Source of the DNA: Candidatus Aminicenantota bacterium
Lineage (GTDB): Bacteria; Acidobacteriota; Aminicenantia; Aminicenantales; Aminicenantaceae
Length of the DNA stretch: 64,000 nucleotides
NCBI GenBank assembly: GCA_020348385.1
Contig: CP070750.1
Coordinates: 1,558,615 to 1,622,614, forward strand
Direction: 5' to 3'
The notes below the pieces were generated by a model, which was not told the origin of the DNA, did not search any database, and was given only the letters and a program-made list of their open reading frames with translations. Positions 1 to 15,758 of this stretch are shown here, one piece after another (positions within the stretch are counted from its first letter, which is position 1; each line of letters opens with the position of its first letter). A program made the translations under genes and the position numbers.

Positions 1-472
1 TTCCATAGGGGGCGGTGGAAGCATTAGCGTCTATCGGGGTTGTGGCAGCGACTTGCCCTCCTGTCATGGCGTAGTTGAAATTGTTGACACAGATAATCGT
101 GATATCCATATTGCGCCTAGCGGCATGGATGAAGTGATTCCCCCCGATCCCGAAGATATCTCCATCTCCGCTGAATACGACGACTTTTAGATCAGGATTT
201 GCCAACTTCAATCCAGTGGCAAACGGTACAGCTCTGCCATGAGTTGTGTGGAATGAGTCCAGTTTGACATATCCTGCCACACGACCTGTGCATCCAATAC
301 CCGAAACAACAGAAACCTGATCCAAATCAATCTTGCTCTTTTTCAAGGCTTCATTAAAAGACGTGACAACTGTCCCAATTCCACAGCCAGGACACCAGAT
401 GTGAGGAATCCTGTCCATTCTCAGAAATTTTTCCGATGGGCTCTCTGCTTCGCGGCGATCTTCTTTAATCAT
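1..472 (-). CDS. korB: 2-oxoacid:ferredoxin oxidoreductase beta subunit (KorB-type), 3' part missing
   Basis: TPP-binding catalytic subunit of a 2-oxoacid:ferredoxin oxidoreductase, which oxidatively decarboxylates 2-oxoacids to acyl-CoA with ferredoxin as electron acceptor. The visible 157 residues contain WCPGCG near residue 26, GIGCTGR, HTTHGRA, and the TPP/Mg motif GDGD followed by IGGNHFIHAARRN. This set is typical of the KorB/OorB class. The ATG at 472 overlaps the alpha subunit stop in an ATGA arrangement, so the two are translationally coupled. The gene runs off the left edge, so the C-terminus and any gamma subunit lie outside. The substrate (2-oxoglutarate or a branched-chain or aromatic oxoacid) cannot be told from this part. 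Confidence 0.92.
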   Translation of the reverse strand, partial: MIKEDRREAESPSEKFLRMDRIPHIWCPGCGIGTVVTSFNEALKKSKIDLDQVSVVSGIGCTGRVAGYVKLDSFHTTHGRAVPFATGLKLANPDLKVVVFSGDGDIFGIGGNHFIHAARRNMDITIICVNNFNYAMTGGQVAATTPIDANASTAPYG

Positions 473-1635
473 TTTGCGGCCTCCTTGATGACGTTTAAAA
501 TATCATTGGGATCATGAACCCAACCACCCATATGGGGAACATGATAAGTGGCAGCTTTCCCCGCTGTGCATCGTTCCACTTCCAGCACGACCTGTCCATA
601 GTTGATCTCAGGAACGACAAAAGCTTTGATCTTTTTTGCCAACTGCTTTATCCGTTTTTCTGGAAAGGGCCACACAGTTTTCAGCCTCATCGTTCCGATC
701 TTCATACCCGCCTTCCGTGCTAATTGAACAGCACGGATAGCGACACGGGATGTGATTCCGTAGGAAACCACAACTATCTCGGCATTTTCGATCTGATCTT
801 CCTCTATCATGATAATTTTATCTGCATTATCCGTGATTTTGTCGGACAGACGAGGGATCGTCTCGGCCTGACATTCAGCGTTAATGACAGGGTAACCGCG
901 TTCATCATGGGTCAGTCCTGTGGTATGAAAGCGGTAGCCGTCCCCGGCTTTAACCATGAAAGGGATCCCATCTTTATCCAATTTGTAGGGCAGATATTCA
1001 TCCTTAGGTCCCGAGTACCATTTCCTTTCCACGACCTTGATCTCTTCAGCAGGGGGGATAACCACTTTTTCGTGCATGTGCCCCACGCATTCGTCTGTCA
1101 TCACGAACACTGGGACTCGGTAGATTTCAGAAAGATTGAATGCTTCTACGGTCAGATCAAAGCATTCCTGTGGAGAATCAGGGGAAAGAGCGATGATTTT
1201 GTAGTCGCCATGAGATCCCCATCTAACCTGCATCATGTCCTGCTGGCCGGTCAATGTAGGGAGCCCTGTAGATGGTCCACCTCGCTGCACATTGGCTATC
1301 ACCAGCGGGGCTTCCATCATGCAGGCTAGCCCGATATTTTCCATCATCAGGGAAAACCCTGGGCCAGATGTCACAGTCATGGCTTTCTTGCCTCCCCATA
1401 CAGCACCGATCAAGGCAGCGATGGAGCCGATTTCGTCTTCCATCTGGATAAACACACCTCCCACTGAGGGAATCCTTTCTGCGAATCTTTCCGCTGTCTC
1501 TGTTGATGGTGTGATCGGATAACCCGCAAAGAATCGGCATCCTGCAGCGAATCCTCCTTCTGCGATCGCGTAGTCTCCGTCAAGATAATGGGAACCTGTT
1601 AAAACTCCTTTAGGGTCTGCTTTCACCTTTTTCAC
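469..1635 (-). CDS. korA: 2-oxoacid:ferredoxin oxidoreductase alpha subunit (KorA-type)
   Basis: Pyrimidine-binding (alpha) subunit that pairs with the beta subunit encoded next. The 388-residue protein has the N-terminal GNxA-like segment with GYPITPSTE, then [14 protein letters not shown], a [11 protein letters not shown] loop, and a C-terminal transketolase-like domain ending in a PEINYGQ segment, all usual for KorA/VorB. The start is a GTG preceded by GGAGGAAGAAG. It overlaps the ferredoxin gene upstream by 26 bp and the beta gene by 4 bp, giving order ferredoxin-alpha-beta. Length is normal for the separate-alpha form without a fused gamma domain. Confidence 0.93.
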
Positions 1636-1885
1636 CTTCTTCCTCCTCTTCCTTGATGGTCACAAAAATGGCAAATTCAGGGCATATGGATTCGCAAAGC
1701 TGGCAATACACACATGCGTCCTCATCCTTCACAAAAGGAGGATGATAGCCCTTGACATTGAACTCCTCGGACATTTCGAGGACATCTTTGGGACAGTATT
1801 CCACACAAAATGCACATCCTTTACATCTGTCTTTTTTGATGTGAATTTTGCCTTTTATTGGTTTTACATCGCCAAAATAAACCAT
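1610..1885 (-). CDS. korD: 2-oxoacid:ferredoxin oxidoreductase ferredoxin subunit (KorD-type)
   Basis: A 91-residue 2[4Fe-4S] ferredoxin-like subunit. Two clusters are visible: [12 protein letters not shown] near residues 21-32 and [12 protein letters not shown] near residues 58-69. Such delta subunits pass electrons from the catalytic subunits to soluble ferredoxin or to a partner such as the adjacent Hdr-like proteins. The C-terminal tail is rich in Glu and Lys. Its end overlaps the alpha gene by 26 bp, so it is the first Kor gene of the run. The ATG at 1885 lies 7 bp after the stop of the HdrB-like gene. Confidence 0.92.
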
Positions 1886-1892
1886 TTGTTCC

Positions 1893-2771
1893 TCAAATTA
1901 ATCCTTTTTCCTTCAAGATAGGTTTAGGATCTATAAAATTAAGGTCGAACCTTAGAGTCTCCTCAGGGCAACCAAGGGCAATGGCCAATGCTTGCGTGAA
2001 ATACATCACCGGCATGTGTTTGAACTCCGGATATTTTTCGACTGTTTGTTTCTGTCTCTGGTCCAAGTTGAAGGCACACAGCGGGCAGCTGACAACCACC
2101 ATTTCCGCTCCTTGGTCCATGGTAGAAGTGAGAATCTGGTTGGTTCTGTCTGCAATGATATCCGGCTTATCGACTGTCTGATAGGCTCCACAACATTCTG
2201 TTTTGAAAGGGAAATCCACAGAATCGGCACCCAATACAGACATCAGGTCGTCGAGGATTGTCGGATTTTCCATATCGTCGAATCCGATTTCTTTAGGCCG
2301 GACCAAAAGACACCCGTAATAGCTGGCTATTTTGAGTTTTTTTAGCGGCTTGACGACTTTTTGCGCAAGGTTTGCGAATCCTATCTCATCCCTTAAGAAC
2401 TCCAACAAATGAAAGATCTGGACATCACCATCATATTGGACTTCTTCTCTGTCCATGAAGTCGTTCAGTATATCCAGGCTTTCGGGATCGGATTTTACAC
2501 GTTCATTCGCTCTTTTGAGTGTGTTGTAGCACATGGCACAGACAGTCATGACTTTTTCGTAATTGGCTTCCTTGACACGAATAAGGTTTCGGATCGGGGC
2601 AACGTGATGGATTAAATCATCTGTAGTGAGAGAAAAGACGGTCCCGCAGCAGTTCCATCTGTTCAGCTCTTCGACCTCTACTCCGATGGCATTCAAAGAG
2701 CATATGGTTGAGTCTTCAAAGTTTTTTGCGTGATTTTTTAGTGTACAGCCGGGGTAGTAGCTTATTTTCAT
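1893..2771 (-). CDS. hdrB: HdrB-like heterodisulfide reductase subunit B
   Basis: A 292-residue CoB-CoM heterodisulfide reductase subunit B-like protein. It carries two cysteine-rich CCG domains: YYPGC, NCCGT and CAMC in the first half, and YYGC, ECCGA and CPLC in the second. In the family these bind noncubane [4Fe-4S] clusters that reduce disulfides. Bacteria lacking methanogenesis use HdrBC-like pairs in electron-bifurcating or menaquinone-linked complexes. HdrC lies 52 bp upstream and the Kor genes directly downstream in the same direction, so this is probably one operon. No HdrA is visible. The start ATG has AAGGAATTATA before it. Confidence 0.88.
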
Positions 2772-2823
2772 TATAATTCCTTAAATTATTAGGATTATAG
2801 GGTTTATCTGTCATTGCAGATGC

Positions 2824-3231
2824 TTATGATGTGAATTTCCTCATGCTGCAGATGAGAGCGATGGGAGGAATATCTTCTTTTTCTTTATCGGATAGGTTTT
2901 CGACTTTGAGATGATCTTCTCTGTTACGGAGCAAAATCTGGCGTAAGGCTTCGATGACTTCGGCAATGTTGATTCCCTTAGGACAGCGGGCATTGCATGT
3001 CAAACAAGAAGCACAGATCCAAATTGCCTTGGAAGCAAGAAGCTCGTCTTTAAAACCCAGCTGAGCAAATCGGATGATCTGATTCGGGAGTATATCCATA
3101 TCCATGACGGCAGGACATCCTGCGGAACATTTGCCACACTGATAACAGGCGAGGAGATTTTGTCCACTGAGTTCCTGAACCTTGTCGACGAAAGAATCCC
3201 TAATTTTTTTACGAGAAAGATTAATGCGCAT
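2824..3231 (-). CDS. hdrC: HdrC-like 4Fe-4S protein
   Basis: A 135-residue heterodisulfide reductase subunit C-like protein. Two [4Fe-4S] motifs are seen: CYQCGKCSAGCP near residues 29-40 and CASCLTCNARCP near residues 73-84. HdrC delivers electrons to the noncubane clusters of HdrB, encoded next. It is the first gene of the probable hdrC-hdrB-korD-korA-korB operon. A TTGACA-N17-TTTACT promoter lies about 80 bp upstream. No strong Shine-Dalgarno sequence precedes the ATG at 3231. Confidence 0.87.
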   Translation of the reverse strand: MRINLSRKKIRDSFVDKVQELSGQNLLACYQCGKCSAGCPAVMDMDILPNQIIRFAQLGFKDELLASKAIWICASCLTCNARCPKGINIAEVIEALRQILLRNREDHLKVENLSDKEKEDIPPIALICSMRKFTS

Positions 3232-3309
3232 TTGGATGACTCGCGTACAAAGTAATTCTTATAACCTATAGTTTTTATTATGTATTATAGATAGAAATAA
3301 AAACATTAC

Positions 3310-3338
3310 AGTAAAGCACAATAAGCCATACCTGTCAA
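3310..3338 (-). promoter_or_regulatory. Predicted sigma70-type promoter of the hdrC-hdrB-kor operon
   Basis: On the minus strand TTGACA (3338-3333) is followed after 17 bp by TTTACT (3315-3310). This would give a leader of roughly 70 nt before the hdrC start. A second TATAAT-like box lies at 3289-3284. Inferred from consensus match and position only. Confidence 0.5.
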
Positions 3339-3427
3339 GAATTATAGCCTGAATTATTTATAAAAAATGCCGATAAAATCGTTCATTTTCAAGAATACAA
3401 TCTTATAGCTTAATACTTACTTTAAAC

Positions 3428-3469
3428 GCAGGGGTGGGGAGGGTTGGCCGCAGGGGTGGGGAGGGTTGC
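3428..3469 (+). repeat. G-rich intergenic repeat, two tandem units (22-bp period)
   Basis: GCAGGGGTGGGGAGGGTTG occurs at 3428-3446 and again at 3450-3468, a 22-bp period. Each holds the 16-bp core GGTGGGGAGGGTTGGC or nearly so, found at four other intergenic loci here. It lies directly after the stop of the spermidine-synthase-like gene. The four G-runs per unit could form a G-quadruplex. The rest of the 3232-3427 gap is AT-rich and holds only the operon promoter. Confidence 0.85.
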
Positions 3470-3470
3470 A

Positions 3471-5603
3471 TTAGAATTTTCGTCCCCACAAAAGAAAGAG
3501 AAAACAAAAGGAATTGAGCAACAAGATATACTTTGTCAAAAGGGGTAGTCCGAAAAGTGGGATAAGAAAGGAGGAGACAGCCAGCGCGCCTAAAAAGGAG
3601 CCTAATAAATCCACTCCATAGCCGGCCCCATAGTTTTTTTTCTCCTTCAAGTACAAATGATTGGACACGACGAATAAATCTCCTGCGAGATAACCCAAGA
3701 ATGCCAGGTACAGGAAAAAGAAAATTTCAGGAGGTTGAGATTCCAGCCACAAAATCAGCAAGAAAATGAGCAGGATGAACCCAAACTGTATAATGAGAAG
3801 TTCAAGATATCCTTTTTTCTTTCTTTTTTTTCCTCGAAGAGCCCCTAAAAAAAGGCCAATCATGAAAGAAGCAAAAAGCAAGGCTACTTTTTGATAGAGA
3901 TATCCATATAGGGTTTGGAAAGCGATGAGCATGATGATTTCGATGGTTATGGTTGTTAGACCCATCACTGCCAGGGGAAGAAGATAAAATGATGATTTTT
4001 TGTGCCTCCATCCCAAAAAGACCATTATGAGCAGCAATCCGATAAGCGGGACATCGAGCAGCCCAAATCTTCCCAGTCTGGATGTAAGCCGAAACAGAGA
4101 GGATTCCAGCCCATGAAACTGAGAGTTCCACAAAACGGAATTGTAATAATAGCTGATAGGAACAAGATCGAGATTTAGGGATTTTTTGCCTTGATCGAGG
4201 GTTTCTTTCAGCAAACTTAGCCTGAATGGGCTGAGACGGGAGAACAGAGAATGGGAACGGATGTAAGTGTTTTTGAGACTTAGTTGATCGATTTTTCGAG
4301 CCAGTATTTGGTGATCGAGCGATATCGGGGCCGAACTGGCAAGGAAAATGTTGGAATCCCCAGGAACGATACCCATTTCAGGGAAAATATCTTTCAACGT
4401 GAAGTAAAGAGAGGCAAGAAAATTCTGAAGTTCGTCGCTGATGTAATTCTCGGCCGAGGAAACACGGAAAGAGAAAATTCCGTCTGGAGCGAGTTTCTTT
4501 TTAACTTGGGAAAAAAACTCCTTAGTATAAAATCGATTGATCTGAGCAGTGGACGGGTCGGGAAGATTGAGTATGATGGCGTCATAGGTGTCTTGAGTTT
4601 TATTAAGGAAGGCCCGTCCATCCTGGAAATATATATGAATTCTTGGGTTTTTGAGATTAGCAATTTCTTGCTGAGGTAGGTATTTGAGAGACAAACGGAT
4701 TATTTCCGGATCGAGCTCGACATATTCCACCTGGGCTTTTGGGTATTTGAGAACTTGTCCAAGGCTTCCACCGGCTCCGCCTCCGATCAAAAGGACTCTT
4801 TCCGCTTGAGGTCTCTGCAACAGTGCAAAATGTACGGATTCTTCAGATGAAGCAAGATTCGGATAGGAATAGACCAAAAGAGTGTTGTTATACAAGGAGA
4901 GCATTTCTTTTGTTTGAATGACTTGTAATTTACCAAAGGGAGTATCAATGCTCTCGATCATTTCAAACGGTTTCCAATGGATTTTTTGACTGGGGAGATC
5001 AAATATCCCAAAAGCGGCCAGGAAGAGGAGAGCGAAGAGAAAACAGATTTTTTTCTTTCTGTGGTGCATGGTAAGATATATAGTCAGCGATACAATAGCC
5101 CCAATGATTGCGGTCGCCTGCCAGTTTGAAAAAATAGGGATGAAGAAAAAATAAACAGTTATTCCTGCCAATGCGGATCCCAACGATTCCATCAGGTAAA
5201 CTTGGGTGACATTTCCTTTCAGAAATATGGCGTTGAACACGAATAAAACACCGAGTGGAAGGCTGACGATCAACGAAAGAGCTAGCGAAAAGAGAAGCAT
5301 CGGAGTTATTCCTGTTATTTCCCCAGGGAGAGTGTTGAGGATAAAGCGAGAGAATCGCAAGAGGACCAAACATATCGGGAAAAGAAGGATAACAAGATAA
5401 TATATATAGGGAATACGGGAAAAATCCCATGTGATTCTTGAAGCAAAAAGGCTTCCCACCCCTCCCCAGAGGAGCCATGATGCGAGAATAAAACCAAAGG
5501 TTATTTCATTTCCATAAAAATGAACTGAGAATTCTCTAAGCAGGTAGATTTGAAAAGAGAGGGCGAGAAAGCCCAATAGAAAAGGAGGTAGATATTTTTT
5601 CAT
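3471..5603 (-). CDS. Membrane-integrated spermidine synthase-like protein
   Basis: A 710-residue protein with many hydrophobic helices in residues 1-200 and again in roughly 515-710, flanking a soluble polyamine-synthase-like methyltransferase fold. The central domain has VLLIGGGAGGSLGQVL, VEYVELDPEIIRL, FQDGRAFL and DAIILNLPDP, matching the decarboxylated-SAM or SAM pocket of spermidine synthases. Such fused forms are widespread but mostly untested, so true polyamine synthesis is uncertain. It ends a three-gene minus-strand run after the AmrS-like and DUF362 genes; the AmrS stop is 9 bp upstream of the ATG. It may modify a small molecule or lipid at the membrane. Confidence 0.8.
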   Translation of the reverse strand: MKKYLPPFLLGFLALSFQIYLLREFSVHFYGNEITFGFILASWLLWGGVGSLFASRITWDFSRIPYIYYLVILLFPICLVLLRFSRFILNTLPGEITGITPMLLFSLALSLIVSLPLGVLFVFNAIFLKGNVTQVYLMESLGSALAGITVYFFFIPIFSNWQATAIIGAIVSLTIYLTMHHRKKKICFLFALLFLAAFGIFDLPSQKIHWKPFEMIESIDTPFGKLQVIQTKEMLSLYNNTLLVYSYPNLASSEESVHFALLQRPQAERVLLIGGGAGGSLGQVLKYPKAQVEYVELDPEIIRLSLKYLPQQEIANLKNPRIHIYFQDGRAFLNKTQDTYDAIILNLPDPSTAQINRFYTKEFFSQVKKKLAPDGIFSFRVSSAENYISDELQNFLASLYFTLKDIFPEMGIVPGDSNIFLASSAPISLDHQILARKIDQLSLKNTYIRSHSLFSRLSPFRLSLLKETLDQGKKSLNLDLVPISYYYNSVLWNSQFHGLESSLFRLTSRLGRFGLLDVPLIGLLLIMVFLGWRHKKSSFYLLPLAVMGLTTITIEIIMLIAFQTLYGYLYQKVALLFASFMIGLFLGALRGKKRKKKGYLELLIIQFGFILLIFLLILWLESQPPEIFFFLYLAFLGYLAGDLFVVSNHLYLKEKKNYGAGYGVDLLGSFLGALAVSSFLIPLFGLPLLTKYILLLNSFCFLFLLWGRKF

Positions 5604-5612
5604 ATGTGAAAT

Positions 5613-6734
5613 CTAGGCCCAAACTCCAGGAATGGGATTTTCACAGAATTTGCACTTACCATCCAGCATTTCGATTTTTCGGATATGATACTGGATTCTT
5701 TCGATGATGGTATTCTGGCATTTGGGACAGTAAGTGTTTTCAGATTTATGGCCGGGCACGTTTCCGATATAGACATACCGAAGCCCCTCTTGTAATGCAA
5801 CTTTGTGAGCTTCGACCAGTGTTGAGATGGGTGTAGGAGGAAGATTTTTTAAAAGATACATAGGTTGGAATCGGGAAAAGTGAATGGGAACATCCGGACC
5901 GATTTCCCGGAGTATCCATCGGGACAATTTCCGGATTTCTGAGGGTTTGTCGTTAAGCGTGGGGATAACAAGGTAGACAATTTCCAGCCAGACGTTGCTT
6001 TTGGATATTATTTTTATCGCATCGAGCACAGGTTGGAGCTCACCGCGTACGTATTGGGTATAAAAATCTTGGGAAAATGCCTTCAGATCTACCTTGATGG
6101 CATCCACAACCTTTATCAGTTCCACTAGGGGCTCGGGCTTGATGTGTCCTCCTGTAATTACGACGCTTTTGATGTTTTTTTTACGCGCCATTTGGGCTGT
6201 GTCGAACATATATTCATAGAATACTACTGGCTCGGAATAGGTATAAGCTATGACGGGACAGCTGTTTTTTTCAGCCGTAAAAACGACAGCCTCGGGCGGG
6301 AAATCGACGTGGCGAATCTGTTCGGGCCTCACTTGAGATATTTCCCAATTTTGACAGAATTTGCAGTTTACATTGCACCCGGCTGTGGCAATGGACAACG
6401 CGCTGCTGGAAGGTAAAAAATGGAACAGAGGTTTTTTTTCAATCGGATCGATATGCATGGAGCATGCCTTACCGTAGACAAGCGTGTAATAGGTCCCTCC
6501 GATGTTCTCTCTGACACCACAGTAACCCCGTTCCTTATCCCCCAGTTTGCATAGGCGTGGACAAAGAATGCATTCGATTTCTCGATCGGGATGTTTTTTG
6601 TAAAATCGGGCTTCGACCTTGGATAGATTGGAATTTTGGGTGAATGCCTGCATCTCGATAAGCATGGGAGCCAACCCAGAGCAGGTCAACAAACCGGCAG
6701 CTCCAGTGGTCTTTAGGAAGCTCCTTCTATTCAT
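5613..6734 (-). CDS. amrS: AmmeMemoRadiSam system radical SAM enzyme (AmrS-like)
   Basis: A 373-residue radical SAM enzyme. CNVNCKFC at about residues 120-127 is the 4Fe-4S/SAM motif (CxxxCxxC). Upstream lies the family's Cys-rich segment CILCPRLCKLGDKERGYC, and at the C-terminus CPKC and CKFC pairs. The first 20 residues (NRRSFLKTTGAAGLL) look like a twin-arginine signal, unusual for a radical SAM enzyme. The AmmeMemoRadiSam name comes from co-occurrence with AMMECR1 and Memo proteins, neither of which is in this window. The reaction is unknown. The ATG is 1 bp after the stop of the DUF362 gene. Confidence 0.85.
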   Translation of the reverse strand: MNRRSFLKTTGAAGLLTCSGLAPMLIEMQAFTQNSNLSKVEARFYKKHPDREIECILCPRLCKLGDKERGYCGVRENIGGTYYTLVYGKACSMHIDPIEKKPLFHFLPSSSALSIATAGCNVNCKFCQNWEISQVRPEQIRHVDFPPEAVVFTAEKNSCPVIAYTYSEPVVFYEYMFDTAQMARKKNIKSVVITGGHIKPEPLVELIKVVDAIKVDLKAFSQDFYTQYVRGELQPVLDAIKIISKSNVWLEIVYLVIPTLNDKPSEIRKLSRWILREIGPDVPIHFSRFQPMYLLKNLPPTPISTLVEAHKVALQEGLRYVYIGNVPGHKSENTYCPKCQNTIIERIQYHIRKIEMLDGKCKFCENPIPGVWA

Positions 6735-6735
6735 C

Positions 6736-7626
6736 TTACACTACCACTTCCTTGATTTTTATCTTGTCAAAATTGGCTGTTCCCAATCCCATTTTTTCGG
6801 CCGATTTTAAATACCTTGGTTCTCTGTCTTCTTCGCTCAGGGAAGGAAGTCCCTTTTTGGCTCTCAATTTTTCGATGATCTGCCATCCAATCGTGTCAGC
6901 GGCAACGGGATCAAAACTGAAAATCAGCATTCCCTGTTTTTCCGCCCAGCGGGAGTGGTAAGATGGTCCTCGGTGGTACTGGACGATCAACCCATCCAGG
7001 ATAGTAAGCCTGTGTTTTTTCTTGATGAGAGAAGAGGCAAAGACTTCTGCCACATAAGGATCGCAATTCGTGTCATGATATTTGTTGGGATTATGGATGG
7101 CACCAAAATAGTTTTTCATCCCCGCCGTCACCCCTGCCAATCCATGATCTTTGAGGATGGCGAGACTGATGGAGGAGGAGATGTGGTTTGATTGAATCCT
7201 AGAAAAAAGACTGCCGATGTTGAGATGAGAAATAAGATTCTGATTGTAGCCGATACCCTGTGTGTCCGTTCCGAAAACCTTGATACCTCTTCGATTCCAG
7301 TTCAGCTTGTATCCGGCATCCTGAAGTTCACGGTTGGTGCGGTCCCACACGACAACATCCCCATTCTGATCATGGTTGTCTGATAAGAATTGGGCAAGAC
7401 ATAAAGCGACATTGGGGCGGGTGGAGATGCTTTTTCCTCCGATAGTGTTGATTTTGATGCCGACCTTTTCCTTTGTGGGGAGAAAACTGTGGAGGCAGTC
7501 TTTCCATTTGGATTGTCCCGTCAATGTAAAGAGACCCTGTGTATACATTTGTGCGAGGGATTTGTCATTCATTTCAAAGCTTGGGGAGAAGAGATTATTT
7601 CCTCTCGCAATGACCACGGTTGACAT
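6736..7626 (-). CDS. DUF362 domain-containing protein
   Basis: A 296-residue DUF362 protein from the ATG at 7626, which has GAGAAG 6 bp upstream. The sequence shows KVGIKINTIGG, then a DHGLAGVTAGMKNYFG segment and DPVAADTIGW near the end, all typical of DUF362. The extra ferredoxin domain of some members is absent. An in-frame extension to 7863 is possible, but it would run through the promoter and signal peptide of the divergent DUF6599 gene, so I reject it. Function is unknown; DUF362 proteins often sit near radical SAM and iron-sulfur genes, as here. Confidence 0.82.
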   Translation of the reverse strand: MSTVVIARGNNLFSPSFEMNDKSLAQMYTQGLFTLTGQSKWKDCLHSFLPTKEKVGIKINTIGGKSISTRPNVALCLAQFLSDNHDQNGDVVVWDRTNRELQDAGYKLNWNRRGIKVFGTDTQGIGYNQNLISHLNIGSLFSRIQSNHISSSISLAILKDHGLAGVTAGMKNYFGAIHNPNKYHDTNCDPYVAEVFASSLIKKKHRLTILDGLIVQYHRGPSYHSRWAEKQGMLIFSFDPVAADTIGWQIIEKLRAKKGLPSLSEEDREPRYLKSAEKMGLGTANFDKIKIKEVVV

Positions 7627-7780
7627 TTTTATCTTCTCAATCTGGCCTGTTTTCTCTGATTCCAAGGTACTCTTTCCGCTAATCTCTGTCAATAGGAGGC
7701 GTCCCCATTTATTTTTCCTTGAGAATCTGGCAAAATGGTATAAAAAGATGTTTGGAATATTTTCAAAAGGAGTGATTGTT

Positions 7781-8701
7781 ATGAAAAGGCTTAATAAAGG
7801 ACAAACAATAAAATGGCTAAATCTCTTGCTGATTTTATCCTTTTTGTTGTGTGCTCCCAACAATCGCGCGGACCAAGAAACTCCCGTTGTCCTTAAATCT
7901 CTTCTTCCAAGTGTGGAAGGAATGAAATCCAGTGCGTCTCCTGATATTTATTTTCCAGAATCTCTATTTGAATACATTAATGGTGCGGCTGAGATTTACC
8001 TCGCGTATGATTTTAAAGAGTTGATCGTAGCCGAGTACACAAAAAGCGATTCCTCCGAATCTGTCTCTGTGGAAATCTATGATATGGGCAACCATAAGAA
8101 CTCTTTTGGCATCTACAGCGCCGAACGATACCCTGACAACGAATTTATGGATTTGGGAACTCAAGGATACATGGAAAAAGGTGCCTTGAATTTTTTAGTA
8201 GGGAGATATTACGTCAAGCTTCTCTGTTATGATTGCGGAGAGAGGAGCGATCAGTGGCTCCACGCTTTCTCTGAAGAGATCGTGAATCGAGTGGAAAACA
8301 AAAAGGGATTTCCCGCTTATCTACAAACTTTCCCGAAAGATGGATTGATCCCGAATACAGAGAAGTTCATCCTGAGAAACGTCATGGGATATAAATTTCT
8401 CCATGATGGCTATGTCGTCAGCTATAAGATGAAGGAGCTCTCCTTCGATTGTTTTTTGATCGAGGGAAAAGATCCAGAGGAAGCCACAAGTATGTTGAAA
8501 AAATATTTGGATGCAAAAGGGGCTGATTCGGTAGAAAAAATTTCTATAGGATTCCGGGTAAAAGACCGGTATTACAATAACATTTACCTTGCACAGGTAA
8601 ATAACATCCTGTGTGGTGTGATGAAAATCACCGATGATTTAGAAGATGTTGGGGAAAGCTATCTCGAGCAATTGGTCCACTCTGTAAAAAGCCGACTATA
8701 A
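7781..8701 (+). CDS. Secreted DUF6599-like protein
   Basis: A 306-residue exported protein. The ATG at 7781 follows AAAAGGAG and opens a signal peptide (KRLNKGQ, then a hydrophobic LLLILSFLL core, cleavage near NRA). The mature part has YINGAAEIYLAYDF, VEIYDMGNHKNSFGIY and GRYYVKLLCYD, which I recognise as the DUF6599 pattern. Longer in-frame starts back to 7376 would overlap the divergent DUF362 gene and are not believed. The gene is divergent from the DUF362/AmrS/spermidine-synthase-like run. It converges with the HPt gene, 7 bp apart. Function unknown. Confidence 0.8.
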   Translation: MKRLNKGQTIKWLNLLLILSFLLCAPNNRADQETPVVLKSLLPSVEGMKSSASPDIYFPESLFEYINGAAEIYLAYDFKELIVAEYTKSDSSESVSVEIYDMGNHKNSFGIYSAERYPDNEFMDLGTQGYMEKGALNFLVGRYYVKLLCYDCGERSDQWLHAFSEEIVNRVENKKGFPAYLQTFPKDGLIPNTEKFILRNVMGYKFLHDGYVVSYKMKELSFDCFLIEGKDPEEATSMLKKYLDAKGADSVEKISIGFRVKDRYYNNIYLAQVNNILCGVMKITDDLEDVGESYLEQLVHSVKSRL

Positions 8702-8708
8702 ATTCAGG

Positions 8709-9821
8709 TTATTTGAGACGGAGATTGGATAGATAGTCCTGCATCTGACCAATAAAATCTTCAATTTCCTCAGCTTTTTGTTCCTTGGCAAAAGTTTCGA
8801 TCTGGTGGCCAAGCCTACTGATCTTCTCGAATCCATAACACTTTCCTGATCCTTTCATTTTGTGTCCCAGGTCTTCGATTGCACTAAAGTTTTTCTTTTC
8901 CAAGGCATGTCTGATCCTGCGGATATCTTCTTTTCTGTTTTCGAGATACCCGGGAACCAAGGGCTGGATGGATTTATCGAGGTGAATTGTGTCATTCTGT
9001 TCATGTGATGTTTTCACATGCTTCTGGATAATTGTGCCCAGTGTTTCTTGAATTGTGGATTTTTCGACAAAATCGTCGAATCCCGCATCAAGACAAGTCG
9101 TTCCTTTTTCTTTAAATGTGGAGCCAGTGAGAGCGATGATCGGAGTCTCCGGAAGGATATTTTCGATTTCGATCTGACGCATCTGGTTGAGAGCTTCGAA
9201 TCCATCGAGTTCAGGCATATGGATATCTAAAAAGACGATCGAATAGGTTTTTTTTCGGAAGAAGTCCACAGCTTCTCTTCCGTTCCTGGCCATGTCGAGA
9301 TAAAATCCAGCTTGACTGGCATAAAATTTCATCAAAACTTGATTGGGCATCGAATCGTCTGCCGCGAGTATCGTCACGTCGGAGTTTTTGTCCGAATTTA
9401 CCCGGGAAAGGACAGGTTGAGTTTCGCTAGGGATTCCTTCCCATTTTTGATCTATAGACAAACGTTTTCCAGAAGGAAGAATGTTTTTAAATTTTTCGAA
9501 TTCTTTATTGAGTTGAATGAACAAAAGTTTCGATTTCTGGATATTTTCTTCTCTTCCCGATAGTTCGATTTCCTCGGAGGTGCGATGTAGTCCGTTCAAG
9601 CTCATATTTCCGGAGGATCCTCTTAGACTGTGGGCAATTTCTTTTATCGCGATAAAATCACTCCGTTCAATCGCATTTTTGAGTTTGGAATATTTTTCGA
9701 TAAAATCTTCGATGTAGATATCGATCAGTTCTTGGAGAAGATTCTCATCTCCACCGATCCTCTCCATTACGGACGGCAAATCGATTGGGATCGTATCTTT
9801 CCGGCTCTTTTCCTCGGACAT
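8709..9821 (-). CDS. HPt-receiver-HPt phosphorelay protein
   Basis: A 370-residue protein with three phosphotransfer modules: an HPt domain (residues about 10-117, His64 in AHSLRGSSG), a receiver (about 148-265, AADD pocket, Asp199 in FLDIHMPELDG, Lys254), and a second HPt domain (about 290-365, His320 in GHKMKGSG). No kinase or output domain is present, so it should act as a relay or sink. Its first HPt is a close paralog of the next upstream gene, implying tandem duplication. It is last in the five-gene signalling operon, 1 bp after the stop of that paralog. Confidence 0.88.
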   Translation of the reverse strand: MSEEKSRKDTIPIDLPSVMERIGGDENLLQELIDIYIEDFIEKYSKLKNAIERSDFIAIKEIAHSLRGSSGNMSLNGLHRTSEEIELSGREENIQKSKLLFIQLNKEFEKFKNILPSGKRLSIDQKWEGIPSETQPVLSRVNSDKNSDVTILAADDSMPNQVLMKFYASQAGFYLDMARNGREAVDFFRKKTYSIVFLDIHMPELDGFEALNQMRQIEIENILPETPIIALTGSTFKEKGTTCLDAGFDDFVEKSTIQETLGTIIQKHVKTSHEQNDTIHLDKSIQPLVPGYLENRKEDIRRIRHALEKKNFSAIEDLGHKMKGSGKCYGFEKISRLGHQIETFAKEQKAEEIEDFIGQMQDYLSNLRLK

Positions 9822-9822
9822 T

Positions 9823-10218
9823 TTATTTCATGCTCGGCATTTTTTGCTCGATGATCTGTCTCTTTTCGAGAGGGAGAAGGTCTTTGAGTTTAATGAATTC
9901 TTCTTTCAGTCGAACCAACATGAGTTTGGCCTGGTCGATATTATTTTCTTTCCCTGATAGTTCAATCCTATAGGCTGTTTCATGAAGGTAGGTTAAGCTT
10001 AGGTTGCCGGAGGCTCCTTTGAGACTGTGCCCAATTTCTTTGATGTTGTTAAAATCACCCCCTGCTATAGCCTGTTCGAGCAAGGCGTATTTTTCCATGA
10101 AGTCCTCGATGTATATATCGAGTAGTTCTTGGAGAAAGGATTCATCCCCGCCCACTCTTTCCAAGACAGATTCCATATCAATGGATTCCGAATTTTTTAA
10201 ATTATGCATGTCTGACAT
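9823..10218 (-). CDS. HPt domain protein
   Basis: A 131-residue single HPt protein with phospho-accepting His64 in IGHSLKGASGN. The shared stretches LQELLDIYIEDF and IELSGKENNI show that it is the paralog of the N-terminal HPt in the downstream protein. Likely receives phosphate from the second receiver of the hybrid kinase two genes upstream and passes it to the REC-GGDEF proteins. It lies 13 bp after the upstream REC-GGDEF gene. Confidence 0.87.
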   Translation of the reverse strand: MSDMHNLKNSESIDMESVLERVGGDESFLQELLDIYIEDFMEKYALLEQAIAGGDFNNIKEIGHSLKGASGNLSLTYLHETAYRIELSGKENNIDQAKLMLVRLKEEFIKLKDLLPLEKRQIIEQKMPSMK

Positions 10219-10231
10219 TCTGCCTCACCTT

Positions 10232-11182
10232 TTATCCTATTTTTTTATTTATGACGACACAATTACGTCCTTTATTTTTTGCTTCGAGAAGAGCTTCATC
10301 TGCAGCCAGGATGAGCGCTTCTGCTGTGACATCCTTCGTATGGTTCTCTATTGATGTGCCTCCAAGACTGAAAGTAATATTCAGCGAAACGGAATTGTCT
10401 GATATCCTATACATGTGCACCATTTCCCTGAACCGTTCTGCGATAGTTTCCACTTCAGTTAAATTGCAATTGGGGAGAATAACCAAGAGTTCATCCCCTC
10501 CGTATCGACAGATCTCATCATAATTGCGAACATTCTTCTTCAAGAGTCTGGCAGCCTCTTGGAGAACCAAATCCCCGACATGATGGCCATGAGTATCATT
10601 GATGGTTTTGAATTTATCGATATCGATCATGACAATTGCCAACGGATGGTTATCCCTCTGGGCTCGATTGATTTCTTTATCAAGGATGCGAAACATCCTC
10701 TTCCGATTCCAAAGCCCTGTCAGATGATCTCGGGATGCCTGTTCCTGGAGTTGATTTTGCAAATCGACGATCCGTTTTCCTGTTTTTAGTCGAGCTTTCA
10801 ATTCGAGGTGATGGAAGGGTTTTGTGATGTAATCATCCGCGCCGGCAGAAAAGCCTTTGATAAGGTCTTTTTGTTCATCTTTAGCCGTTAAAAGAATGAC
10901 ATAGGTGTATTCCTGATCTTTTTTCTGGTGATCTTTGTTCCGGATTTTTTGGCACAATTGGATACCGTTAATCTCTGGCATCATCCAATCTAGGATTGCG
11001 AGATTTATTTCATTACTTTGTAAAGCTAGCCAAGCCTCCCTTCCGTCTTTTGTCAAGATCACTTCGTACCCCCAATCACGTATATTTTTTTGTAAAATTT
11101 TCGCCGAAACAGAATTATCTTCTGCGATCAAAACCTTTATGATCTTTCCATTTTGTTGATGGGATAACTTTGCCATATTCAT
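10232..11182 (-). CDS. Response regulator diguanylate cyclase (REC-GGDEF)
   Basis: A receiver plus GGDEF protein of 316 residues from the ATG at 11182. The receiver has IAEDN and phospho-acceptor Asp65 in AILDWMMPEING. The GGDEF domain shows DHLTGLWNR, IDIDKFKTIND and an active-site motif written GGDEL at about 228-232. An RNYD inhibitory (I-site) motif lies five residues before it. It should make c-di-GMP from two GTP when phosphorylated; the Leu in place of Phe is a conservative departure. A TTG start at 11218 would overlap the kinase gene by 29 bp; the ATG lies 7 bp after the kinase stop and is preferred. Confidence 0.87.
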   Translation of the reverse strand: MNMAKLSHQQNGKIIKVLIAEDNSVSAKILQKNIRDWGYEVILTKDGREAWLALQSNEINLAILDWMMPEINGIQLCQKIRNKDHQKKDQEYTYVILLTAKDEQKDLIKGFSAGADDYITKPFHHLELKARLKTGKRIVDLQNQLQEQASRDHLTGLWNRKRMFRILDKEINRAQRDNHPLAIVMIDIDKFKTINDTHGHHVGDLVLQEAARLLKKNVRNYDEICRYGGDELLVILPNCNLTEVETIAERFREMVHMYRISDNSVSLNITFSLGGTSIENHTKDVTAEALILAADEALLEAKNKGRNCVVINKKIG

Positions 11183-11189
11183 CGTTTTG

Positions 11190-14100
11190 CTATTGTTCTT
11201 TACCGAATTTTTGGACAACCCGTTCTATTTTAGTGAGAAGTTCGTCTGCCTTGAGGGGCTTCGGGATATAATCGTCCATGCCTGCTTCGAGACACATCTC
11301 TCTATCTCCCTTCATGACATGGGCTGTCATGGCAATGATCGGGGTATACTTGTCTGATTTTTTTTCCTTTTCTCTGATGGCTGCAGTGGCTTCGAATCCA
11401 TTCATGTTGGGCATTTGGATGTCCATAAGGATCACATCAAATATACCTTTATTCATCGCTTTCACCGCTTCTTTCCCGTCCCTCACACCTGTCACTAGGT
11501 GGCCTTGTTTCTCGAGCATAAAATAGGCCACTTTTTGATTCACGATGTTATCCTCGGCGATGAGCACGCGATAGGAATTAAGAGGACCATCTGGCGCTTT
11601 CTCTTTTTCGAGAGGTTCTACGGTAGTTTTGTCCGGTGTTGTTCCGGAAGAAGGAATAGGTGACTGGCTTGTGGTTTTTTGCTCTGGACTCGGAGCTTCT
11701 GCTTCTTTCGGTTTCCCCTCAACAGAAACTTCAAGAACTGTCTTGACCACTTCCAAGAGAGTGGAACTCTTGATGGGTTTAGTCACAAAGGCTGGAGAGC
11801 CAAGCCTTTGCCAAGGGGCTGCGTCTCCTTTGTGATTGGGCGAGGCAAGCAACATTACCGTGGTTTTGGCCATATTCGGGTTGTGTCTCATATGGTCCTG
11901 CAAGATGAAGCTCTCCATGCCTGGTAGATAAGCATCGAATAAATGCATAGAGTAAGGGGAGTTATCTTTATCGGCTCTATCTATGAGGGTTAGAGCTTCC
12001 TCGGCACTTTCCGCCTTCACAACGTTCAAGTTCCAACGTTTTAGCATTTCTTCGAGGATTCGCCTGGTGGAGGCGTTGTCGTCAACAACAAGCACGGGCT
12101 CATGGTCGAAAAGGATGGTCTCGGCTTTCTCTTGTGATTCTGAAGCCCGCAGAGCCAGGCCCAATTTGACTGTAAAATGAAATTGACTCCCTTGATTGGG
12201 CTCACTTTCTACCCAGATACGTCCGCCCATCAACTCAGAAAACTGTCGGGAAATGGAAAGGCCTAATCCTGTCCCGCCAAATTTACGTGTCATCGAACCG
12301 TCAGCCTGAGCAAACGCATCAAATATGATCTTTTGTTTATCCTTCGCAATCCCTATTCCTGTATCTCTGACTGTGAATTGCAGGGAAATGTTCTTAGCCG
12401 TTTTAAGTTCCTTTTTGACCGACACAACCACTTCACCTTCATTGGTGAACTTTATCGCATTAGAAATGAGGTTCACGAGAATTTGTTTCAAACGAGCTGG
12501 ATCGCCGATGACATCAAGATTCATTCCGAGAGGAACGTCACAAATCAAATCTAGTTTTTTCTTAAAAGCATCAAGAACAAGCGGAGTAACCGTATCATAA
12601 ACAAAATCATGGACATTGAACTCGATCGTTTCCAATTCCACTTTTTGCGCTTCCACTTTTGTGAAGTCCAACAGATCATTGATGAGGGTCATCATGGATT
12701 CTGCCGATTTTTTTATACCCGTTATGTATTCTTCCTGTTCAGGAGTTAAATTTGTTTCGAGAACGAGATCAGTCATCCCCAGGATCCCGTTCATTGGTGT
12801 GCGGATCTCATGGCTAATATTGGCAAGAAACTCACTTTTGGCTTGATCAGCGCCTTGAGCCTTTTTTTGAGCTGTTACAAGCTGAGTCACATCTATGAGG
12901 TTCACGATGATGCCCTCGTAACTGTTTTTGAAATAAATCGGTTGGAGACGGAGGATTGTTTCCAGCCCAAATATGGGCCTTTGTATGATTATTGGTTGAG
13001 AATTCGGTGATGTCCGAAAGCTTTCAATGTGGTTTTTTAATGTATCTGAAGGTATCCCTGTGTGGAAATCCCATAGACTTTTTCCGATGACATCTGCTTT
13101 TTCTCTCTTAGCTAGACGGAGGAAATAATCATTCACCTCCACGACAATGTTGTCCCGATCAGCAAATACAACGCCTTCTTCCATGCCGGATATCATGGCT
13201 CCAAGTTTGGCGGTTTCTTTCTGAAGGGCTTCTTCCGTTTTTTTTCGTTCGGTGATGTCTTGGTGTTGAAGCAGATATCCACCAGGATTGTTTTTTTCGT
13301 CTTTTCCGATCGGAGTTATGAGAACATCGAGATAGATCGAACCACTTTTTGAGGTTTCATATATATTGAGTTCCTTGATCCGCTCAAAATCATACAAGGT
13401 CTCGTATCGGGCAATTTCCCCCCTAATCAGCTTGTTCCTTGCTTCCTCCGGCAAGTTGGGATTTTGAAAAAGATTCAGCCGATTCGATGCCTCGATGGCC
13501 TGGATTCCGAATATTTCCAAGCTAGCTTTATTGGAATTGAACAGGTTCCCCGCAGAATCATAAAGTTCGATACCAATCGGAGACTCTTCGAATATATTCC
13601 GGAAGTGTTCTTCGCTTTTTTTAAGCGATTCTTCCGCCTTCTTGCGTTCTGTGATATCACGGAGCACCCCCTCCACACCGATGGATTGGCTGTTCTCATC
13701 GAATAGCACCCTTGCATTGACCGATGTGTGTATTCTCCTCCCGTCCTTGGACACGAGACTTAATTCGTAGTCGTTTGCGAATCCTTCTTCTTTTAACTTG
13801 GCTACTAGAGCATCGCGATCATGAGGACTTTTATAAAAATCCGTTACCGGATGCCCGATAACCTCTTCGGGAGAATACCCGGCCTGGTTTAAAACAGAAG
13901 GGCTTATTTCTGTGATTAGGCCATCCCTGTCTGTTCGGTAATAGACATCGTGGAAGGATTCAAAAATCAACCTGTACTTTTCGGCATTCTCCTTGAGTTG
14001 GTCTTCTACCCATTTCTTATCGGTTATGTCCTTATCCACTCCCCGGTATCCAAATATCTCTCCCTGGTCACTCAATATGGGAACCCCGTTCGTAACAAGA

Positions 14101-14846
14101 AGAACTTTTTTCCCCTCTTTGGTTAGATTCCAGTTTTCCAATTCGACAATCGGTTTTTTTTCTTGGAAGAGATGTGAAAAGATTTCTCTTACTCGAATAG
14201 CCTCTTCTGGCGGCATCAGATCAAAAGGGAATTTCCCGATAATTTCTTCCGGTTCGTACCCAAGAATTTGTTTAACTCTTCCTGATGCAAAGGTATATTT
14301 TCCCTCTTTGTCCACTTCCCAGATCCAGTCAGCAGAGCTGAGGGCAATATCCTGAAATCTTTTTTCAGAATTTCTAAGGACTTCTATCATTTTTTTCTGT
14401 TCCGAGATATCTCGATAAATCCCATAGACCGCTTCCAATTTTCCATCGACGATTATGGGAGAGGTGAGAATGGACACATTGATCAGCCGGCCGTCTTTCC
14501 GCCGACGGATCGTTTCCAATCTCAATTTTTCGCCGCGGATTGTCCGTTGCGTGATGAAAAGAGCCTGATCTTGAGCATCGCTGGGAGCGACCAATGTGTC
14601 GATATGCTGCCCGATTATTTCCTCATCAGAGTATCCGAACATTCTCAGGAACTCGCTGTTAACTCGTATGACATTTCCTTGTTTATTAGCCAGAACTATA
14701 GCTTCTTGAGCGCTTTCGAATAATTGGTCGACATAAGCTTTTTCGATCTGCAGCTTTTTTTCCAGGTCTATAGAAGTATTTTGTGCAGAAGGAGAGCGCA
14801 ACTCCTTTTCAATATTTTCTAAAAAAATGTCTTTTTTGTCTCGCAT
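11190..14846 (-). CDS. Hybrid histidine kinase with five PAS domains and two receivers
   Basis: A 1218-residue BarA-like hybrid sensor kinase. No membrane segments are visible, so it is likely cytosolic. PAS domains lie at about residues 36-150, 157-275, 285-403, 408-535 and 543-660. Next come HisKA (His679 in [13 protein letters not shown]), HATPase_c ([22 protein letters not shown]), receiver 1 (VVDDN; Asp971 in [10 protein letters not shown]) and receiver 2 (IAEDN; Asp1142 in [12 protein letters not shown]). Pro/Ser/Thr-rich residues 1045-1085 link the receivers. It lacks its own HPt domain, which matches the HPt genes downstream. SD is weak (AATAAA before the ATG). Confidence 0.9.
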
Positions 14847-14858
14847 TTTATTTCTGAA

Positions 14859-15758
14859 CTAAAGGCCCTTGGAAAGAATGATTCTATCTCGACCTTTCTT
14901 TTTTGCTAACAGTAGGGCTTTATCACTTGCCTGAATTAGCTCCATTCTGGAGAATTGAAGAGACATCTCATTGGATACACACCCGATACTGATGTTGATT
15001 TTCAGAGAGCCGACCTCTGTGGGAATTTTTGTTTTAACCACAGAGTCGTAAAGTCGTTTAGCGATATTTTTAGCCTCCTTGTTTCCACAGTTAGGGAGGA
15101 CGACAAGAATTTCGTCTCCTCCATAGCGGCCGATCCTATCGTAAGGCCTAATGGCATTTTTTAGTCGGCCTGCCACTTCGACTAGGACTTCATCTCCAAT
15201 CAGGTGCCCGTAACGGTCATTTATTCGTTTGAAATGATCGATATCGATCATCACGACACCGGTTGGTGTGTTCTCTCTCTCTCCTCTTTTTAGTTCTGTG
15301 TCTAGGAAATCAAAAATTTTGTTCCTATTCCACAATTTTGTCAAGTTATCTAAGCTGGCAAGCCTGATCCGCTTATCCTCGTTCTTGATGATTCGTTCTC
15401 CGTTCTGGACACGGTATTTGAGTTCCACGAAGCTGTAAGGCTTGGTCATGTAATCATCGGCTCCAGTTGACAAGCCTTGGATGATATCGTCCTGCCCCCC
15501 CCTTCCTGTAAGCAGAATGATATATATGTACTTTGAGGCCTCCTTCTGATACTCATTACGGATCTTTTGTGAGAGCTCAATCCCATCTATCCCTGGCATA
15601 TTCCAATCGAGAATGGCTAAACGGATATTGTTCGCTCTGGCAAGTTCCCATGCTTCGTTGCCATCTCTGGCGGAAACCACATCATAGCCCCATTCCTTGA
15701 GGTTGTTCTCGAGGGCTTTACATGAAATAAAATCATCTTCGGCTATTAATATTTTCAT
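14859..15758 (-). CDS. Response regulator diguanylate cyclase (REC-GGDEF)
   Basis: A 299-residue receiver-GGDEF protein, paralog of the one at 10232-11182. The receiver has IAEDD and Asp51 in AILDWNMPGIDG; the GGDEF domain has IDIDHFKRIND and GGDEI at about 213-217 with an RPYD I-site at 204-207. Predicted to make c-di-GMP under control of the hybrid kinase. It is the first gene of the signalling operon, 12 bp before the kinase gene. Confidence 0.88.
   Translation of the reverse strand: MKILIAEDDFISCKALENNLKEWGYDVVSARDGNEAWELARANNIRLAILDWNMPGIDGIELSQKIRNEYQKEASKYIYIILLTGRGGQDDIIQGLSTGADDYMTKPYSFVELKYRVQNGERIIKNEDKRIRLASLDNLTKLWNRNKIFDFLDTELKRGERENTPTGVVMIDIDHFKRINDRYGHLIGDEVLVEVAGRLKNAIRPYDRIGRYGGDEILVVLPNCGNKEAKNIAKRLYDSVVKTKIPTEVGSLKINISIGCVSNEMSLQFSRMELIQASDKALLLAKKKGRDRIILSKGL

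Follow-up and report, generated by a model that had tools for sequence, protein, structure and literature searches.

Gene content and order at the locus

Here, we analyzed a window of 64,000 nucleotides from the 4.35-Mb, single-contig genome of a Candidatus Aminicenantota bacterium, in which positions 3471 to 8701 hold four genes built around AmrS, a radical S-adenosylmethionine (SAM) enzyme with a predicted twin-arginine translocation (Tat) signal. Three of them lie on the minus strand in the order DUF362 (6736..7626, 296 residues, without a signal of its own), AmrS (5613..6734, 373 residues) and a membrane protein of 710 residues with a spermidine-synthase-like (SpdSyn-like) domain (3471..5603). 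The fourth, on the plus strand, encodes a two-domain DUF6599 protein of 306 residues with a hydrophobic N-terminus (7781..8701). AmrS scored 384.2 bits against TIGR04337 (curated cut-off 220) and is therefore a member of that family, DUF362 and DUF6599 scored 66.4 and 153.7 bits against their Pfam families (cut-offs 24 and 27), and the membrane protein matched Pfam Spermine_synth with 104.7 bits. A first-pass annotation of this DNA had named the same four families in tight packing, and both points were borne out, with gaps of 1 bp between DUF362 and AmrS and 9 bp between AmrS and the SpdSyn-like gene. For DUF362, comparison with its relatives points to the ATG at 7626 as the most likely start, and with DUF6599 starting at 7781 the two divergent genes are separated by 154 bp (7627..7780); a promoter and terminator scan of 3100–8800 revealed no excess over shuffled sequence. 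The closest named relatives of this AmrS belong to Ca. Aminicenantes (90–91% identity). LpxB and Kdo transferase genes are present in the window and, on general knowledge, suggest a cell with a lipopolysaccharide-bearing outer membrane and hence a periplasm.

Gene order was compared in the best 80 of 577 AmrS matches among genome contigs (the 80 best loci, L-numbered), comprising 53 Aminicenantes-type loci (L011–L062 and L090, some of whose records are labelled Acidobacteria) and 27 others. A gene was counted as linked when it lay within 700 bp, for DUF362 also on the same strand. By this measure, DUF362 preceded AmrS in 72 of 76 testable loci, and a SpdSyn-like gene followed it in 65 of 78, so the packing is not a product of chance. 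The corresponding counts were 49/50 and 51/51 for the Aminicenantes-type loci, and 23/26 and 14/27 for the others. According to the record labels, the full order of DUF362, AmrS and SpdSyn-like gene also occurs in Zixibacteria, the DUF362–AmrS pair in Latescibacterota, Calditrichia and KSB1, and AmrS followed by the SpdSyn-like gene in one 'Deltaproteobacteria' contig that starts at AmrS (L076). Conservation of gene order in relatives, on which the first-pass annotation had staked its proposal, is thus observed, and it extends beyond Ca. Aminicenantes.

The AmrS signal and its partners across genomes

AmrS carries the radical-SAM motif CNVNCKFC (C120–C127; 6354..6377, minus strand), and the CxxxCxxC pattern recurs in all 80 best loci; it is also present in 84/84 exported-clade rows of the AmrS tree described below, but each row was trimmed to begin at its first C..C...C motif, which fixes the three cysteines there by construction. 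At the N-terminus, two arginines precede a hydrophobic stretch, MNRRSFLKTTGAAGLLTCSGLAPML, and this signal region (beginning MNRRSFLK; residues 1–30, 6645..6734, minus strand) scored 21.7 bits against Pfam TAT_signal (cut-off 22.7) and stood at the cut-off of TIGR01409 (16.7). The twin arginine was found in 76 of the 80 best loci, and in the other four the N-terminus fell outside the match.

Co-occurrence was read in 99 genomes of the host's phylum (G-numbered), with the same sample used for all three protein searches. Exported and cytosolic AmrS were divided by a score line (357.6 versus 353 bits) that was chosen after seeing the scores and then checked by N-termini. Exported AmrS was scored in 33 of the 99 genomes, and in the 32 other than the window's, whose N-termini were read, every one bore a twin arginine. 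The line excludes a lower-scoring twin-arginine AmrS of G020 and a second twin-arginine copy in G005 (L163, L171).

In eight of the 32 exported AmrS loci of this sample (L141, L144–L148, L150 and L151), which form one clade with a tree support of 99, a CxxCH motif lies between the Tat signal and the AmrS core; at that place it was found in 0/80 best loci and 0/20 cytosolic AmrS. Since the attachment of haem c takes place in the periplasm, outside the inner membrane, the motif supports a periplasmic AmrS in this clade. From the sequence, it further suggests an electron donor and marks these proteins as possible haem-c radical-SAM enzymes. Alternatively, the Tat signal may act as an uncleaved anchor, with AmrS held on the cytoplasmic face of the membrane and using cytoplasmic SAM. 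Such an arrangement would need no periplasmic SAM, and twin-arginine-bearing N-termini are not always cleaved; however, one clade keeps a CxxCH directly behind the signal (haem attachment being, by general knowledge, periplasmic), and the hydrophobic signal-like segment on the partner fusion in 33/33 genomes and the outward placement of the SpdSyn-like domain, both described below, also speak against it. We regard a cytoplasmic anchor as improbable.

The AmrS tree was built by a quick method with no bootstrap, leaving out the odd-numbered loci below L063 and three repeated contigs (L035/L120, L044/L122 and L073/L127 are the same contig each), and counting L167 as cytosolic. The exported rows formed one group of 84 with a support of 80, which fits a single origin of AmrS export in this sample. 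Decay of AmrS after export was rejected, as the radical-SAM and other cysteines are kept. A role for AmrS as activase of a periplasmic glycyl-radical enzyme was also considered as a possibility.

The first-pass annotation had reported the usual AmrS partners, AMMECR1 and Memo, as absent, which is true of the window only. Elsewhere in the host genome, both occur: two AMMECR1, three Memo and two AmrS genes score over cut-off, one AMMECR1 and one Memo being joined in the same fusion gene. The fusion, of 487 residues with both Pfam domains over cut-off, bears a hydrophobic N-terminal signal and is unlinked from the locus. The remaining AMMECR1, Memo and AmrS genes, the second AmrS among them, look cytosolic, and the genome therefore appears to hold one exported and one cytosolic set. 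A third Memo with an extra N-terminal domain of ~110 residues (L005:1483–2715, at ~2.222 Mb) lies outside the exported set. In other members of the phylum, cytosolic AmrS adjoins AMMECR1 and/or Memo-like genes (L188, L193, L194 and L167). Among the 80 best loci, 11 carry a signal-bearing Memo or Memo-AMMECR1 gene either directly 3′ of AmrS or in divergent orientation to DUF362, and in some of them this gene is truncated by the end of the contig.

Across the phylum sample, each of the 33 genomes with exported AmrS encodes Memo and AMMECR1 fused in a single frame, preceded by a hydrophobic segment whose 12-residue mean hydropathy ranged from 1.75 to 3.91 (weakest in G028 and G093). Within the whole sample, the fusion of G012, G075 and G096 was scored by a tblastn match spanning both domains. 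Exported AmrS and exported fusion occurred together in 33 genomes, AmrS alone in none, the fusion alone in 5 and neither in 61 (Fisher p 2.5e-21), where, in genomes lacking exported AmrS, only AMMECR1 matches in long frames were read. The membrane protein, hereafter MFS-SpdSyn for its major facilitator superfamily (MFS)-like helices, gave a similar distribution at a cut of at least 264 bits: 32 genomes with both, one with AmrS only, four with MFS-SpdSyn only and 62 with neither (Fisher p 1.9e-20). By family, the counts for MFS-SpdSyn in the same order were 21/1/0/29 (p 1.9e-13), and the fusion gave p 1.8e-12. The four genomes with MFS-SpdSyn and no scored exported AmrS comprise G020, with its lower-scoring twin-arginine AmrS; G086, with an AmrS fragment at a contig end beside MFS-SpdSyn; G021, with an AmrS fragment ~3 kb from MFS-SpdSyn on the same contig; and G076, which is 82% complete. 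Acidobacterial relatives also carry the set, as an Acidobacteriaceae assembly (L089) and G070 show.

These distributions bear on another alternative, namely that the genes are neighbours with no functional link. Neighbourhood alone can mislead, because only about half of the testable Aminicenantes-type loci (20 of 39), and 0/18 of the others, keep the HdrC-HdrB-Kor genes 3′ of the locus, which makes these genes a local neighbour and not a core part. For MFS-SpdSyn, however, co-occurrence persists across different contigs (for example in G042, G066, G015, G033 and G098), the gene often lying on another contig than exported AmrS. Of eight families mixed for exported AmrS, three (f8, f12 and f28) were mixed in step for MFS-SpdSyn; f36 was not in step, and f10, f22, f33 and f37 hold MFS-SpdSyn in a genome without scored exported AmrS. 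When the surroundings of exported AmrS in the phylum sample were read (32 loci), the fusion was found in 24, DUF362 in 19 and a SpdSyn-like gene in 17, as against 0 of 40 cytosolic control loci from the same sample with either DUF362 or SpdSyn-like genes (3.5 to 11.5 kb read per locus). Contradicted by this co-occurrence, mere adjacency is barely credible.

The membrane protein, DUF362 and DUF6599

The AlphaFold2 (AF2) model of MFS-SpdSyn, built from 49 sequences (predicted local distance difference test, pLDDT, 92.1), consists of seven helices, a spermidine synthase fold (residues 214–482; 4158..4964, minus strand) and seven further helices. The inserted fold matches spermidine synthases (3anx, Z 29.7, root-mean-square deviation [rmsd] 2.9, 290 aligned), while the whole chain (model residues 1–709) matches MFS proteins, namely SV2A (9okg, Z 26.2, rmsd 4.0, 330 aligned) and PfHT1 (6rw3, Z 19.9, rmsd 4.3, 333 aligned); the MFS families of Pfam gave no match to the protein up to E 0.1. 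SV2A itself carries a large domain in a lumenal loop. With helices set from the model and mapped to the 49 sequences, lysine plus arginine was higher in the loops of the N-terminal side in 49/49 (mean 18.2 versus 2.4; per residue 0.266 versus 0.051), so that both termini are predicted to lie inside and the SAM-fold domain, between helices 7 and 8, on the periplasmic side. The closest named architecture is the fused MFS/spermidine synthase NF037959, whose cut-off of 40 bits the protein just misses with 39 bits; we know of no function for it.

Residues were counted in 62 of 109 matching loci plus the window (complete sequences of over 550 residues), 34 being of Aminicenantes type and 29 more distant. 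In the window's protein, Ala277 of GGGAGG (residues 274–279; 4767..4784, minus strand) replaces the acid of GxG[D/E]G, and Asn346 (4566..4568, minus strand) replaces the first catalytic Asp of DxxDP, which is Asp in the aligned spermidine synthase chains 1uir and 1iy9. Among the Aminicenantes-type sequences, the acid was present in 0/34 and the catalytic Asp in 1/34, and the ribose-binding acid E296 and the adenine residue D328 were kept in 34/34; in the more distant sequences each adenosyl residue was kept in 28 of 29. According to PMC10349129, spermidine synthases need the D/E of GxG[D/E]G for decarboxylated SAM (dcSAM). With the dcSAM acid and catalytic Asp lost, MFS-SpdSyn is not a polyamine synthase; on alignment and model it likely binds SAM itself, outside.

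The domain thus shares with spermidine synthases the fold and the adenosyl-binding residues, and differs from them in the loss of both acids, in its insertion within MFS-like helices and in its predicted periplasmic position. A membrane-bound polyamine aminopropyltransferase that stands beside AmrS by happenstance, as the naming in the first-pass annotation implied, would account for the Spermine_synth match and for the close fold likeness. It is already contradicted by the residues, with the dcSAM acid absent from 34/34 and the catalytic Asp from 33/34 Aminicenantes-type sequences, and the protein also scores below the NCBIfam aminopropyltransferase equivalog cut-offs (141.6 versus 472, 122 versus 260 and 101.7 versus 249.55 bits). 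Moreover, two intact soluble spermidine synthases lie in tandem elsewhere in the genome (L242:2939–4668, at ~3.765 Mb), with GGGEG and GGGDG and the Asp kept. We therefore consider such an enzyme very improbable, and polyamine synthesis was rejected as a role.

A more serious competitor is that MFS-SpdSyn acts as a SAM-dependent methyltransferase, or another SAM group transferase, for a secreted substrate, and would thus be a pathway enzyme and not a supplier of SAM. The precedent is NHMT, the seven-transmembrane N-terminal histidine methyltransferase of lytic polysaccharide monooxygenases, which, according to PMC10349129, has seven transmembrane helices before a SpdSyn-like domain without the GxG[D/E]G acid and methylates secreted proteins in the endoplasmic reticulum, within the secretory path. 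MFS-SpdSyn shows the same loss of the acid, likewise has seven helices before the domain and keeps the adenosyl-binding residues. However, NHMT is fungal and its soluble domain is C-terminal, lacking the seven further helices seen here, and the 14 helices in an MFS-like fold seem more than an anchor. The likeness is one of layout, the reading comes without a known substrate, and it would still need SAM outside. We regard a transferase of this kind as a real possibility, though not the favoured one. We favour handling or delivery of SAM as the role of MFS-SpdSyn, since almost every genome with exported AmrS has the protein, including those in which the genes are unlinked.

DUF362 of Aminicenantes and most Zixibacteria starts at its core, and a twin-arginine signal of its own is frequent in its relatives outside these two types (for example L064, L070, L071, L079, L086, L088, L129, L134 and L140). 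A PDB sequence search with DUF362 gave no match up to E 1; PMC11770544 places DUF362 in Pfam clan CL0471 with LarA/DUF2088, and the likeness to the nickel-pincer enzymes of the LarA superfamily is one of clan membership. The host genome holds 12 DUF362 and five DUF6599 genes. All but one of the five DUF6599 matches have a DUF362 match no more than ~1.6 kb away, with other genes intervening in one case (926/928 kb). Two of these pairs, apart from the window's, join a twin-arginine DUF362 with a DUF6599 that bears a Sec-like signal (L238:6332–8130 at ~782 kb and L240:5540–7441 at ~80 kb), which suggests a two-protein unit of general occurrence. The recurrent pairing and these signals make a periplasmic DUF362–DUF6599 unit likely, and it is plausible that DUF362, which has no signal here, is co-exported with AmrS.

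DUF6599 is found divergent from the locus in 43/53 Aminicenantes-type loci, the remaining 10 having <2.2 kb of upstream sequence, and in 0/24 testable loci of the other types; it is accordingly an Aminicenantes-type addition and not part of the core. The DUF6599 query matched 45 of the 80 best loci, two of them (L078 and L080) with 23% identity only and in another cluster. In its AF2 model (pLDDT 90.8), the C-terminal domain resembles the PknH ectodomain (Z 12.6, rmsd 3.0, 128 aligned), TM1622 (Z 10.9), TiME (Z 10.2) and RseB/MucB (Z about 8.8), and the N-terminal domain the lipoprotein TP0453 (Z 9.0, rmsd 3.2, 114 aligned). The modeled C-terminal half thus resembles periplasmic or extracellular domains, and fold likeness alone shows no function. 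Our literature search found nothing on DUF6599 and nothing joining DUF362 and radical SAM. In Zixibacteria-like genomes, a second cluster near exported AmrS (L078–L082) holds DUF362 and a Fer4_5-type membrane polyferredoxin, with DUF6599 in L078–L080. This polyferredoxin was rejected as a fixed partner, its matches in the host genome being weak (33 bits at best).

On the far side of MFS-SpdSyn, 469–3231 encodes KorA, KorD, HdrB and HdrC-like proteins, that is, a 2-oxoacid oxidoreductase beside heterodisulfide-reductase-like subunits; HdrCB/Kor was considered as an electron source, although its adjacency is confined to about half of the testable Aminicenantes-type loci, as counted above. Adjoining DUF6599, a run at 8709–15758 encodes an HPt-like protein, a response-regulator/GGDEF protein and a hybrid histidine kinase of 1218 residues, and its first gene has a match upstream in 15 of the 80 best loci. 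At 29844–30806, a weak deoxyhypusine synthase match scored 25.8 bits (cut-off 27).

A proposed extracytoplasmic AmmeMemoRadiSam system

Taken together, sequence and models lead us to propose, with a probability of roughly 60%, that three components of an AmmeMemoRadiSam system working outside the cytoplasm are encoded here, and that this exported system has a membrane SAM partner dedicated to it. The set resembles known AmmeMemoRadiSam systems (TIGR04337 AmrS with Memo and AMMECR1) in an AmrS that scores over cut-off with its radical-SAM cysteines kept and in the presence of both partners in the genome; it differs in the Tat signal of AmrS, in the fused and signal-bearing Memo-AMMECR1 and in the addition of MFS-SpdSyn and DUF362. 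PMC7159879 cites Burroughs et al. 2019 for 'Memo-Ammecr1 systems'.

From the components, signals, residues, co-occurrence, gene order and domain placement that sequence and models give, we infer export, SAM outside, the role of MFS-SpdSyn, co-export of DUF362 and the following order of steps. AmrS would fold with its Fe-S clusters in the cytoplasm and be exported by Tat, as its signal and the haem-c motif of one clade indicate, probably taking DUF362 along. The MFS-like protein would hold its SAM-binding domain on the outside and either deliver SAM to AmrS or use SAM on the same substrate, and the 5′-deoxyadenosyl radical made by AmrS would act on a substrate in the envelope, probably on the outward side of the inner membrane. 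Memo and AMMECR1, encoded elsewhere in the genome, would act outside as a single signal-bearing fusion and process the AmrS product, and DUF6599 may bind a ligand in the periplasm. A more specific version, in which MFS-SpdSyn, as a transporter with a catalytically altered SpdSyn domain, exports SAM and hands it over for periplasmic radical-SAM chemistry by exported AmrS (with haem c in one clade) and exported Memo-AMMECR1, is, taken as a whole, less likely than not on the same sequences and models.

The strongest hint toward this system comes from the shared inheritance and common outward placement of two SAM-type domains, unrelated to each other, and of a partner with a signal. Its weakest point is SAM in the periplasm: the cofactor of AmrS is not expected outside the inner membrane, and we know of no periplasmic SAM pool. 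Several further observations weigh against the proposal. Signal peptides were called from hydropathy and visual inspection instead of a trained predictor. Aminicenantes AmrS, the window's included, lacks the haem motif, and the single origin of export has only threshold support in the tree (80). DUF362 at the locus bears no signal, and the Memo-AMMECR1 gene is unlinked to AmrS in the host genome, where neither partner adjoins AmrS. A topology model combining hydropathy and charge preferred the outside placement of the SpdSyn-like domain in only 25 of 63 sequences (median difference −1.0; +5.2 for the window), and the charge bias is clear only when the AF2 helix count is used. Among the 29 more distant SpdSyn-like sequences, the acid is retained in 7 and the catalytic Asp in 8. 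The bit-score cut for MFS-SpdSyn was chosen with the scores already in view: 60 of 99 genomes match at E 1e-30 or better, and 24 of these fall below the cut at ≤152 bits. Finally, G093 has exported AmrS without MFS-SpdSyn, and G007, G045 and G096 have the exported fusion with neither exported AmrS nor MFS-SpdSyn.

The single envelope pathway using SAM chemistry twice, as first conceived for this locus, therefore survives in outline through the gene order, the co-occurrence in 99 genomes, the signals, the outward SAM-fold domain and the haem-c motif, having lost its polyamine activity, the supposed absence of AMMECR1 and Memo and DUF6599 as a core member. AmmeMemoRadiSam is a known kind of system. 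Our literature search found no exported form of it with these partners, which is not proof since subscription papers were scarcely covered, and likewise no periplasmic or exported radical-SAM enzyme. Both Memo and AMMECR1 are conserved as far as humans and have links to disease, yet we are aware of no reaction established for the AmrS-Memo-AMMECR1 set. Exported copies with co-inherited partners narrow that question to a substrate reachable outside the inner membrane, with SAM available there and two further proteins that matter. If the more specific version with SAM export is true, we know of no earlier example of a dedicated route for exporting SAM, nor of a radical-SAM enzyme that works outside the cytoplasm of a bacterium. 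Periplasmic radical chemistry that depends on SAM would also overthrow the view that SAM chemistry ends at the inner membrane.

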